From: Candidatus Gastranaerophilales bacterium
Lineage (GTDB): Bacteria; Cyanobacteriota; Vampirovibrionia; Gastranaerophilales; Gastranaerophilaceae
Assembly (NCBI GenBank): GCA_944323725.1
Contig: CALUTP010000007.1
Location: 1 to 38,123 of the forward strand
Direction: 5' to 3'
Length of the DNA: 38,123 nucleotides
In this document: piece by piece, positions 4,786 through 7,797 of the stretch
Position numbering within the stretch: position 1 is the first letter of the stretch
Layout of the letters: each line of letters begins with the position of its first letter
The notes under the pieces: generated by a model
Seen by the model: only the letters and a program-made list of their open reading frames with translations
Told to the model about the DNA's origin: nothing
The model's database searches: none
Translations under genes and position numbers: made by a program

Positions 4786-4817
4786 AAAAAAGAAGACCTT
4801 TTTTGAAAAAAGGCCTT
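4786..4817 (-). terminator. Rho-independent terminator, possible attenuator arm
   Basis: On the minus strand AAGGCC-TTTTTT-C-AAAAAA-GGTCTT folds into a hairpin (4817-4793, one mismatch) followed by CTTTTTTG (T run 4791-4786). Its 5' arm overlaps a segment that can also pair upstream, as described under the promoter/leader entry. Confidence 0.6.
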
Positions 4818-4961
4818 GTTTATGAATTTATTTATATTCTCGACAAAAGTAAGTGTCTTATTTTTTTAAACAAGCCCTTTTATTATTACTTACTATACGT
4901 CGGTATTGAATGTTAATTTTCATTGTTCAACTATTATAGATAAAAAATATTTTCTTGTAAA
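4808..4961 (-). promoter_or_regulatory. Promoter plus leader with competing antiterminator pairing
   Basis: Minus-strand promoter TTTACA (4961-4956), 17 nt, TATAAT (4938-4933) predicts transcription from about 4927. The leader segment AAAAGGGCTTGTTT (4881-4868) is complementary at 13 of 14 positions to AAACAAGGCCTTTT (4821-4808), which contains the 5' arm of the terminator at 4786-4817. The two structures exclude each other, as in riboswitches and attenuators. The leader also holds an ATG-initiated ORF of 21 codons (4923-4858, starting MKINIQYRRIV) that covers the upstream pairing arm and would be nearly leaderless. An independent small RNA of about 140 nt is the alternative reading. Confidence 0.5.
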
Positions 4962-5017
4962 GCCTTTTATTGCAAAAAAAAATTTTGTTTGATAATATTT
5001 TTTGTGGGGAGAGAGAA

Positions 5018-7195
5018 ATGGCTTTATTTATACTATCTTTTTTGCTTGTATTTACTGCTTCATTTTTTTTAGCAATAACATTTGAAAAAAAGAGCTTTAT
5101 TAAATTTTTTATATATTTATTATTAACTGCTTTTGCTAATGTTATTCTTACTTTTGAGTTATTGTCTTTATTTTCTTCAATTTCTCAGGTTGGAATATTA
5201 ATTTGTAATATGTTGTTCGCTGTAGGTTGTTTTTTATTTTGGTATAAAAATAAAAAAACTTTGCCAGCTTTCCAGATAAAAGCTTATTTATCTCGTATTT
5301 GGAATTCGCTTTGGCTTGATAAATATTTATTAGTTTTAGGGCTTGCCTTTATTTTTATGTGCGGGGTATCTTTGTGGTTAATTTCGTTTATGCCGGTTGT
5401 AAATCCTGATGCTGAGGCTTACCATGTTGTAAGAAGCCTTTTTTGGATTTCACAAGGAAATCTGAATCATTTTGATTATTCTGATATAAGAGCTATTGTT
5501 TTACCGATTAATTCAGAAATTTTATATGCTTGGCTTTTGATTTTTTTGAAAAAGCAAATGTGGTTTGGTGCTGTATCATTTTCGGGATTTTTACTTACTC
5601 TAGCATCTTTATGGGGAATTTTGACTAATATAGGTCTGTCTGTTCGAAGAAGGCTCTGGGTTATATTAATTCTTTCATCTTTCGCATCGGTTATTGTCCA
5701 AATTTCTGGTACTGAAACCGATATTATAATTTCTGGACTTGTTATATCTAGTATGTACTTGTTTTGGGAGTATTTGAAGAAAAATTCTAAAATTCTAGTT
5801 TTTATGTCAGCTCTTGCTTATGCTCTGGCTGTTGGAACTAAAACTCCTGCAATTATGCTTATTCCTGGTGTAGGTCTATGGATGAGTGCTTTAGCTTTTT
5901 ATTATCATAAAAAAGATTTTTGTAAATATTTAGGGTATTTTATTGCTTTTGCTTTTTTGAGTTTTATTTTATTCTCATCATATAATTATGTATTAAATTT
6001 TATTGATTATGGAAATATCGCAGGTTCAAAGTCTTTTATGGAAGTACATGTCAATGAAGATGGTTTGCTTGCTCTGCCTGCAAATTTTATAAAATATATA
6101 TTTATGTTTTTTGATTTTACAGGGTTTCGTTGGAATGAGTATGTAGGAAATTATATTGTTCAATTTAAAGAGTTTTTACTTTCAACCTTAGGACTTAGTG
6201 GGGTTAGTGATGGGCTGTATTCTTTACCACTTGATTCACTTAATCAATCATTAATTGAACCAGTTATGGGGATGGGAATTTTAGGCTTTGCTTTGTTTTT
6301 GCCTTGCTGGTTTGTTTCCCTTATAAAACCTATTTTTATTAGAAATAAACAAGTATTTTTAATTTTTTCATTTGCAATGGTTTTGTTTTTTGCGGTTTCA
6401 GTTATGTCTTTACAGATTAATTATATGGTATTTTCTATAAGATTTTTGACTTGTTTTTGTATTATTGCAGCTCCGATTCTTGCCTGTTCGTATTTTAAGA
6501 AAAATAGTTTATTTAAATTTATTGTAGTTTTTTTCGCTTTGTTTTATCTTATTTTTGTATCAACTAATCTTTGGGCAAGGTCTGCTTATAAAATTTATAA
6601 ATATTTTAAGCAAGGAGCAACAATATCTCAAGTTCGTTCAATTGCACATTGTTCTGGTTTTTATAAGTCTGTTGATCAAAATCCTGAGTTGATAAATAAT
6701 TACCCTATTTTTAATGAAGTATGTACTGTAAGAGATAATATTAAAAGCATTGATAAGAAAAATAAAATCTTATTTTTATCAAGTACTTCAGATTCAGTTC
6801 TTTTAATTAAGCTTTTAGAATTTGAAGGTTATAGTATAGATTTTAATATTATAGAAAATTTAAGTAATATTGATTTTAAGAAATATAATTTAATTTTAGT
6901 AATGGATGATGTACAACAGTCTACAAATGTTGTAAATTTTGATAAAGTAAACTCTAATTATAAGTATATTGTAGACGGAGTTATTTGCGGCTATTTTGAT
7001 AGAAAAGATAAATTGATAATTTCTAAAGGTAAATATCCTTATAAAGTCCTTTGTTCACTAGAGCCATTATTTTATAAAATTAAAGGTTATAGGCATTATA
7101 AATCATTCTTTTTTAAGAAGAAAGAACATGGTAAATATTATGATATGGAGTTCAAATTTTATGAAAATATAAACAATCCAGTAATTACAAATTAG
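5018..7195 (+). CDS. Polytopic membrane protein, putative GT-C-type glycosyltransferase
   Basis: The frame is open from 4970, but the ATG at 5018 has GGGGAGAGAG directly upstream and starts a membrane segment (MALFILSFLLVFTASFFL), so I choose it (725 residues). About 11-12 hydrophobic segments fill residues 1-560. A hydrophilic, probably soluble domain follows, with a beta-strand-like stretch (NKILFLSSTSD, YNLILVMDDV). After the fourth or fifth helix there is an acidic extracytoplasmic loop (NPDAEAYHVVRSLFWISQGN) placed like the catalytic first loop of PMT/ArnT-like GT-C enzymes that use polyprenyl-phosphate sugars. The substrate is unknown and the assignment is by architecture only. It ends 4 nt inside the convergent gene that follows. 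Confidence 0.6.
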   Translation: MALFILSFLLVFTASFFLAITFEKKSFIKFFIYLLLTAFANVILTFELLSLFSSISQVGILICNMLFAVGCFLFWYKNKKTLPAFQIKAYLSRIWNSLWLDKYLLVLGLAFIFMCGVSLWLISFMPVVNPDAEAYHVVRSLFWISQGNLNHFDYSDIRAIVLPINSEILYAWLLIFLKKQMWFGAVSFSGFLLTLASLWGILTNIGLSVRRRLWVILILSSFASVIVQISGTETDIIISGLVISSMYLFWEYLKKNSKILVFMSALAYALAVGTKTPAIMLIPGVGLWMSALAFYYHKKDFCKYLGYFIAFAFLSFILFSSYNYVLNFIDYGNIAGSKSFMEVHVNEDGLLALPANFIKYIFMFFDFTGFRWNEYVGNYIVQFKEFLLSTLGLSGVSDGLYSLPLDSLNQSLIEPVMGMGILGFALFLPCWFVSLIKPIFIRNKQVFLIFSFAMVLFFAVSVMSLQINYMVFSIRFLTCFCIIAAPILACSYFKKNSLFKFIVVFFALFYLIFVSTNLWARSAYKIYKYFKQGATISQVRSIAHCSGFYKSVDQNPELINNYPIFNEVCTVRDNIKSIDKKNKILFLSSTSDSVLLIKLLEFEGYSIDFNIIENLSNIDFKKYNLILVMDDVQQSTNVVNFDKVNSNYKYIVDGVICGYFDRKDKLIISKGKYPYKVLCSLEPLFYKIKGYRHYKSFFFKKKEHGKYYDMEFKFYENINNPVITN

Positions 7196-7602
7196 ACGGT
7201 ATAATCAAGTTTTTCCCCTTGTTTATTATTTAATATCCCTTGAGCTTGGGATTTTATTGAACGGGCTTGTGATGCTACTCTATAATCTTGGTCTGATGGA
7301 TCTGATGGAGCCATTGCTGAGCGTATAACGGTATTAGCATCATCAATAGTTTTTTGAGGGTTTGCAGGGTTTAAAGACGGCATTTTAATCGCAACATGTC
7401 CGCCTACGGGTATGCCATCAGCATTTTTTTCAATAACAATAGCTCCGGCAAGAGCACCGCCTGCTGCTTTATGTGCAGCTTCATGCGCATAAATTTCATT
7501 ATAATTTTTGTTAATTAAGCCTTGTTTTTGTTGTTGCTTAGCTTGATTTTGTTGGCTAAATAAAGATGAATATAATGATTTAAATCCAATACCACTAATC
7601 AT
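7192..7602 (-). CDS. SprA-related putative metalloprotease-like protein
   Basis: A 136-residue protein with the core of the SprA-related family: AHEAAHKAAGG (HExxH-like zinc motif, residues about 41-51), a central GGHVAIKMPSL strand, and the conserved tail PSDQDYRVASQARSIKSQAQ. Family members are annotated as putative metalloproteases, but the activity has not been shown as far as I know. The N-terminal 30 residues are Gln-rich (SQQNQAKQQQKQG). An in-frame GTG at 7614 would add four residues. The ATG at 7602 is preferred because GTGGAGT lies 5 nt upstream of it. The gene converges on and overlaps the membrane protein by 4 nt. Confidence 0.75.
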   Translation of the reverse strand: MISGIGFKSLYSSLFSQQNQAKQQQKQGLINKNYNEIYAHEAAHKAAGGALAGAIVIEKNADGIPVGGHVAIKMPSLNPANPQKTIDDANTVIRSAMAPSDPSDQDYRVASQARSIKSQAQGILNNKQGEKLDYTV

Positions 7603-7689
7603 TTTATACTCCACTAACTTTTACAGAAATATTATACTACTTTTGTAATAATAATTCAAGCCCATGTAACATTTAGTGTTAATATATTA

Positions 7690-7721: not shown

Positions 7722-7797
7722 TGGTACTCCCAGGGGAATTCGAATCCCCGTCTACACCGTGAAAGGGTGTTGTCCTAGGCCTCTAGACGATGGGAGC
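7722..7797 (-). tRNA. tRNA-Glu (UUC)
   Basis: The minus strand reads GCTCCCATCGTCTAGAGG as acceptor stem and D-arm, then an anticodon loop CTTTCAC with anticodon TTC, a T-arm GGGGATTCGAATTCCCC, and TGGGAGT-A-CCA. The acceptor stem has 7 pairs with a G1-U72 wobble, and CCA is encoded. It resembles cyanobacterial tRNA-Glu. Confidence 0.95.

Follow-up and report, generated by a model that had tools for sequence, protein, structure and literature searches.

The 142-nt leader RNA in front of a gene for a 434-residue membrane protein is best read as a ribosome-mediated transcription attenuator that would sense the decoding of a CGA-CGN arginine codon pair, a reading to which we give a probability of roughly 0.7. 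The leader lies on the minus strand of a 38,123-nucleotide stretch of DNA (the window) from a 1.9-Mb genome, whose relatives are metagenome assemblies of Candidatus Gastranaerophilales or Melainabacteria, many from animal guts. Comparison among them establishes the frame of a short upstream open reading frame (uORF1), its choice of codons, the covarying helices and a histidine version of the leader before a paralogous gene. The parts of the model that we infer are ribosome stalling, transcription termination and read-through, the nature of the ligand, and what a layer built on a second open reading frame (uORF2) does and in which direction it acts. Ribosome-controlled attenuation had been raised as a possibility in an earlier note made from the letters of the window alone; it is now the best-supported reading, as the frame of uORF1 is conserved, both helices covary and no Rfam family matches. 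Features beyond that note are the CGA-CGN pair, a start that is probably leaderless, the layout of uORF2, parallel and with a covarying stem of its own, and the paralog with a histidine leader.

Organization of the locus

The elements of the locus are as follows.

4961-4933, minus strand: promoter, with -35 TTTACA (4961-4956), a 17-nt spacer and -10 TATAAT (4938-4933), 11 of 12 consensus positions
~4926, minus strand: predicted transcription start, at most a few nt 5′ of the uORF1 AUG
4923-4858, minus strand: uORF1, 21-aa leader peptide MKINIQYRRIVSNNKRACLKK and stop, from frame conservation across homologous loci
4902-4897, minus strand: arginine codon pair CGA-CGT of uORF1, proposed stall and sensor site
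4902-4841, minus strand: P1 hairpin, from fold and covariation, its loop containing the antiterminator 5′ arm
4902-4899 with 4844-4841, minus strand: base of P1, CGAC with GTCG
4894-4888 with 4854-4848, minus strand: upper pairs of P1, AGTAAGT with ACTTACT
4881-4867, minus strand: antiterminator 5′ arm AAAAGGGCTTGTTTA, within the end of uORF1
4822-4808, minus strand: antiterminator 3′ arm TAAACAAGGCCTTTT, overlapping the terminator 5′ arm
4817-4783, minus strand: intrinsic terminator, stem 4817-4793 and then the T run CTTTTTTGTT
4703-4620, minus strand: uORF2, 27-aa peptide MTKRIRRNSIIKANAPIVKLMNLIWGL and stop
4688-4683, minus strand: CGA-CGA pair of uORF2
4680-4674 with 4613-4607, minus strand: outer part of the stem spanning uORF2, CTCAATC with GATTGAG, the 3′ arm just past the stop codon
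4661-4657 with 4630-4626, minus strand: inner part of the same stem, GCCCC with GGGGC
4606-4576, minus strand: hairpin between uORF2 and the Shine-Dalgarno region
4572-4563, minus strand: Shine-Dalgarno region of the 434-aa gene
4551-3247, minus strand: gene of the 434-aa helical membrane protein (paralog A), the proposed controlled gene

The promoter, the hairpin with its T run, the 13/14 pairing between an upstream segment and the terminator arm, the 21-codon ORF over the antiterminator arm, and the 27-codon ORF and membrane-protein gene downstream had all been named by the earlier note, and each is present. Taken alone, promoter and terminator pattern matches are unremarkable, their regional counts being close to the shuffle mean.

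On the plus strand, a divergent 741-aa membrane protein without a Pfam match (4970-7195) adjoins the leader in the majority of genomes of the genus; the TTG listed as its start is close to the promoter, and the ATG at 5018 looks likelier. A 140-aa SprA-related protein (PF12118) is encoded at 7192-7614 on the minus strand.

Two exclusive pairings are conserved

The leader RNA has a folding z of -3.3, and among 2000 dinucleotide shuffles of the RNA 5′ of the terminator a single one matched the real pairing with the terminator 5′ arm. Upstream regions were taken from about 130 homologues of the 434-aa protein, and covariation was examined in an alignment of 50 leaders picked from those with a long antiterminator. 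Of the cells in this alignment, 86% form the antiterminator pairs and 96% the terminator pairs; sliding the antiterminator partner by 1-3 columns lowers the first figure to 33-67%. The antiterminator carries 37 two-sided changes against a shuffled mean of 16, and the terminator with P1 carries 75 against 32, counts that are inflated by the kinship of the sequences, a kinship which the slid controls carry as well. Both exclusive pairings thus covary above all 500 of 500 shuffles in the covariance check of homologous upstream regions that the earlier note had proposed. Two-sided changes occur in 7 of 7 pairs of the P1 upper helix. The base of P1 is weak, CGAC/GTCG being paired in 47% of cells while CGACG is invariant in the same alignment.

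Over all 94 loci that carry the leader, the antiterminator beats at least 95 of 100 shuffles in 57; in the other 37, more than 5 of 100 shuffles are as good, and genus g7 and some others have a short antiterminator. Judged from these alignments, the terminator/antiterminator pair is kept, with compensatory changes in both, through the greater part of an order of Gastranaerophilales-like bacteria. An Rfam search at gathering and relaxed thresholds returned no family for the leader, only tRNAs in the window and sub-threshold matches at chance level; this agrees with the absence of a known riboswitch consensus in the earlier note, and extends to riboswitch, T-box and leader families.

A good promoter, a terminator and a structured RNA of 140 nt would also suit an independent, stable small RNA with its 3′ end at 4786 and no read-through to the downstream genes. 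We consider this hardly probable at all. A scan finds no promoter-like site on the same strand between 4786 and uORF2; throughout the order the element keeps the same gene downstream of it; and in an independent RNA the antiterminator would be purposeless.

uORF1 is read as a leader peptide

An in-frame ATG lies within 45 nt 5′ of the CGA-CGN pair in 93 of the 94 loci, against 3/94 and 4/94 for the other two frames. By this conservation of frame, uORF1 is taken as a genuine translated leader peptide. A -10-like box is found 4-11 nt before the uORF1 ATG in 73 of 90 leaders, mostly without a Shine-Dalgarno sequence, the spacing being 6 nt in 41 and 9 nt in 17. Since the ATG is thus mostly 6-9 nt past the box and mostly lacks a Shine-Dalgarno sequence, most genera, that of the window among them, probably have a leaderless uORF1, as far as predicted start sites tell. 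In 14 other leaders a Shine-Dalgarno sequence is present and the -10-like box is not.

The 3′ part of uORF1 covers the antiterminator 5′ arm. A conserved peptide ending in KGLF or KGLV before the stop was considered and rejected: the window reads KRACLKK and locus L015 reads KRKACL there, with the nucleotides unchanged. Because the frame differs while the nucleotides stay, conservation at the end of uORF1 is mostly explained by the antiterminator. In genus g7, the conserved box at this end persists without its full antiterminator partner.

The arginine codon pair

CGA is a rare arginine codon in the window (16/369, 4.3%), where AGA makes up 70%. Nevertheless, the arginine pair of uORF1 is CGA-CG[T/A/C] in 90 leaders (T 41, A 39, C 10), a count which is partly circular because uORF1s were searched via CGACG. 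Two tests of the CGA choice are independent of that search. The remaining arginine codons of the same uORF1s are AGA in 100 of 113, and in uORF2 homologues, which were found via the C-terminus, Arg-Arg pairs are CGA-CGA in 91 of 96. The tRNA-Arg anticodons found are ACG (inosine; reading CGU, CGC and CGA), CCG, TCT and CCT, so that among the tRNA-Arg genes found only the ACG anticodon can read CGA, 10 of 40 tRNA matches being without anticodon typing. The CGA-CGT pair ends 15 nt 5′ of the antiterminator arm. In the Salmonella his leader, inserted arginine pairs containing CGA lead to high de-attenuation (PMC4046918).

With ribosome geometry taken from typical ribosome footprints, the following course may be proposed. 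Translation of uORF1 would begin right at the 5′ terminus of the transcript. Having completed uORF1, a ribosome would sit on the 3′ end of the ORF and mask the antiterminator arm, so that the terminator forms and transcription stops near 4786. A ribosome held at CGA-CGN (4902-4897) would instead cover the P1 5′ arm and leave the antiterminator arm (4881-4867) free to pair with 4822-4808; the terminator would then be blocked, and RNA polymerase would continue into uORF2 and the membrane-protein gene. The codon pair would report the supply of Arg-tRNA(ICG), arginine shortage being the simplest signal.

Alternatively, attenuation by the ribosome could operate with a signal other than arginine. 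CGA-CGN may be constitutively slow through inosine-adenosine decoding, and the switch would then answer a general slowing of translation, modification of tRNA-Arg(ICG) or ribosome-targeting drugs. The CGA codon itself is conserved, beyond arginine alone; in the his leader of Salmonella, CGA pairs are read slowly even without starvation (PMC4046918); and uORFs sensing several antibiotic classes are reported (PMC12121999). However, leaders in other families retain arginine without CGA, many leaders hold further arginine codons, and the attenuator of the paralog has an ordinary histidine run, the mark of amino-acid sensing. We therefore regard a signal other than arginine as unlikely.

The hexamer could also act in the main family as an RNA or protein-binding motif, CGACG pairing with a downstream GTCG or being bound by a protein at the stem base, with translation incidental. 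Both elements begin with the same hexamer, and CGAC is paired to GTCG in P1, while in many loci a pairing with ATCGTC inside uORF2 would also be feasible. Such a motif would, however, not call for the reading frame that is kept in 93/94 and 93/93 cases; it also sits poorly with the weak pairing of the P1 base despite an invariant CGACG, and with the retention of CGA-CGA in uORF2 where ATCGTC is lost. The uORF1s of other families in the order remain rich in arginine (MRIRKYQ[RK]RCFYTN) even without the CGACG hexamer, and therefore a reading of codons is favored over an RNA hexamer, which we hold to be very improbable. Arginine accounts for 18% of uORF1 residues.

Some points count against arginine-codon attenuation. 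The run is short, with two strictly kept arginine codons against 3-6 histidines in the paralog; the controlled gene has no known action on arginine; and in genus g7 and some other genera the antiterminator is no better than shuffles.

A second element built on uORF2

The layout of uORF2 parallels that of uORF1, with CGA-CGA, then the 5′ arm of a stem, and then the 3′ arm right past the stop codon. The stem covaries, the mean score being 17.4 with the true partner and 12.7 when partners are exchanged among loci; examples are CATTTAAC/GTTAAATG in L113 and a 14-nt helix in L110. The rare codons GCG, GCC and TTG of uORF2 are accounted for by the inner stem with TGGGGCTTG. The hairpin before the Shine-Dalgarno region varies in sequence among relatives and is still present.

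At the C-terminus, NLxWGL is kept as amino acids through synonymous codon changes, and the stop codon follows directly in 104 of 105 loci. The ending NLxWGL-stop is kept order-wide and the N-terminus is variable; the invariance of N and GL is partly built in, as the search pattern required both, while it imposed neither the position of the stop nor tryptophan as against Phe or Tyr. In other families uORF2 reads, for instance, MFINRRNTQIRANAKQKRLMNLSWGL. In L185 and L186 (genus g16) it is about 55 aa long, with a Gly/Arg-rich insert before the ending APLTKLMNL[AV]WGL.

Judging by the stem, the pre-Shine-Dalgarno hairpin and the C-terminal motif, the uORF2 layer probably affects how the 434-aa gene is translated, and uORF2 is a candidate new arrest peptide. 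As in TnaC-type arrest peptides, the conserved residues of uORF2 reach the stop codon, a likeness of layout only. For this second layer alone, uORF2 might instead be a functional, non-regulatory micropeptide that works with the membrane protein, which is compatible with attenuation at uORF1 and which we think possible at well below even odds. The motif is kept as amino acids also in genus g24, where uORF2 is reduced to forms like MNKHSKKLMNLIWGL-stop without CGA-CGA, RNA stem or leader. In contrast, uORF2 is wholly lost in L081, L085, L086 and L128, which keep uORF1 and the membrane-protein gene, and is cut short at or soon after CGA in L042, L083 and L094; a variable N-terminus and an end fixed at the stop also fit an arrest peptide. 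The three shortened loci still have the RNA stem or the frame downstream, and may be natural variants or assembly errors.

The membrane protein and its histidine paralog

The AlphaFold model of the 434-aa protein is all-helical and fairly confident (pLDDT 84). The protein matched nothing in Pfam or NCBIfam, and Foldseek of the model against the PDB gave no clear match (best E 0.27). Membrane domains of ABC exporters (CydDC, Atm1), compared via VIA-align, reached Z of about 5-6, which is too weak for a helical bundle, and were rejected.

A paralog in the same genome (paralog B, L195, G000:C10:7608-8903) is 27% identical to the 434-aa protein. A histidine-rich leader peptide (20% His) precedes paralog B and its homologues at 22 of 23 loci (L195, L197-L216), with runs of 3-6 His; examples are MCIRIMKTKNQNRFHHHHHHLG and MNNNFTLKLHLHHHINLKRL. 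The antiterminator begins within the end of the peptide, and there is a competing hairpin, in many cases with a run of T. That a paralog carries this attenuator layout with histidine codons in place of arginine is our strongest argument for taking CGA-CGN as a sensor of Arg-tRNA. Arginine and histidine leaders together suggest that the membrane-protein family may be linked to basic amino acids, for instance through transport. A third, distant paralog (L299, G000:C38:13564-14421; 526 aa) has no obvious leader peptide by eye.

Distribution

A homologue of the 434-aa protein occurs in 297 of the 306 genomes of the family. Leader DNA was found in 12 of 13 same-genus genomes, the window's own included, at about 79-88% identity, and is present in several other genera too. 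The uORF2 precedes the membrane-protein gene in 105 distinct loci, 94 of which have the leader with CGACG and a terminator, and both leader and uORF2 extend to other families of the order. Each of these modules can be present without the other: besides the four loci that lost uORF2, there are genus g24, L117 and three g10 loci, in which uORF2 is retained and uORF1 lost. A genome search with exact patterns for the uORF2 ending and for the antiterminator pair returned no copy beyond this locus; no wider regulon is therefore seen, although such patterns would miss diverged copies.

In genus g50, a few g7 genomes and one g8 genome, the leader lies directly 3′ of a tRNA-Glu gene; the lineages with this placement (L076-L086, L032, L053, L123) may co-transcribe the two. 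The window has a tRNA-Glu(TTC) at 7725-7797 on the minus strand.

Comparison with known leaders

In its predicted working the leader is like the his-type and speF-type leaders, and it falls outside all named RNA and peptide families tested. As in hisL-type attenuators, a short leader ORF holds regulatory codons, the 3′ part of the ORF contains one antiterminator arm and the terminator shares the other; paralog B even has the histidine run. Unlike them, the leader of paralog A keeps strictly two regulatory codons of one rare kind (CGA-CGN), its start is probably often leaderless, a second structured ORF follows, and the controlled gene is no known biosynthesis or transport gene.

The speF leader of gamma-proteobacteria (ORF34/SpeFL, DUF2618) senses arginine through consecutive arginine codons (HIRRT), and shares with the present leader such codons in a conserved peptide, a structure just 3′ of the ORF and layered control (PMC6386406). 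However, speF uses Rho and RNase G where an intrinsic terminator is found here, and the target gene and the phylum are different. The DUF2618 profile of Pfam (PF10940) did not match uORF1 or any of four uORF2 peptides, and membership of uORF2 in that family was rejected.

The leaderless polycysteine uORFs of mycobacteria, cited in PMC9031893, are similar in placing a uORF with a run of codons for one amino acid before the controlled genes, the uORF1 start being probably leaderless as well; they differ in the amino acid (Cys there, Arg or His here) and in phylum. No attenuator of this kind was found in the papers searched on these gut bacteria.

A more speculative model, which we hold to be doubtful, would derive a two-layer system from two copies of one module, uORF1 acting on transcription and uORF2, with its NLxWGL-stop ending, on translation. 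The CGA-CGN pair would then report the inosine tRNA-Arg and not arginine, uORF2 would be an order-wide arrest peptide, and the attenuator would respond to a different one of the basic amino acids in each paralog. Within the preferred model of attenuation at the arginine codons, uORF2 would likewise add a second layer, which is probably translational.

With CGA retained in the pair and AGA prevalent at the other arginine positions of these ORFs, selection for codon speed in attenuators becomes directly testable. The paralogous genes with arginine and histidine versions of the leader are both probably controlled by the speed of the ribosome at those codons. Their leaders provide a first functional lead for an unannotated membrane-protein family that is near-universal in its bacterial family.
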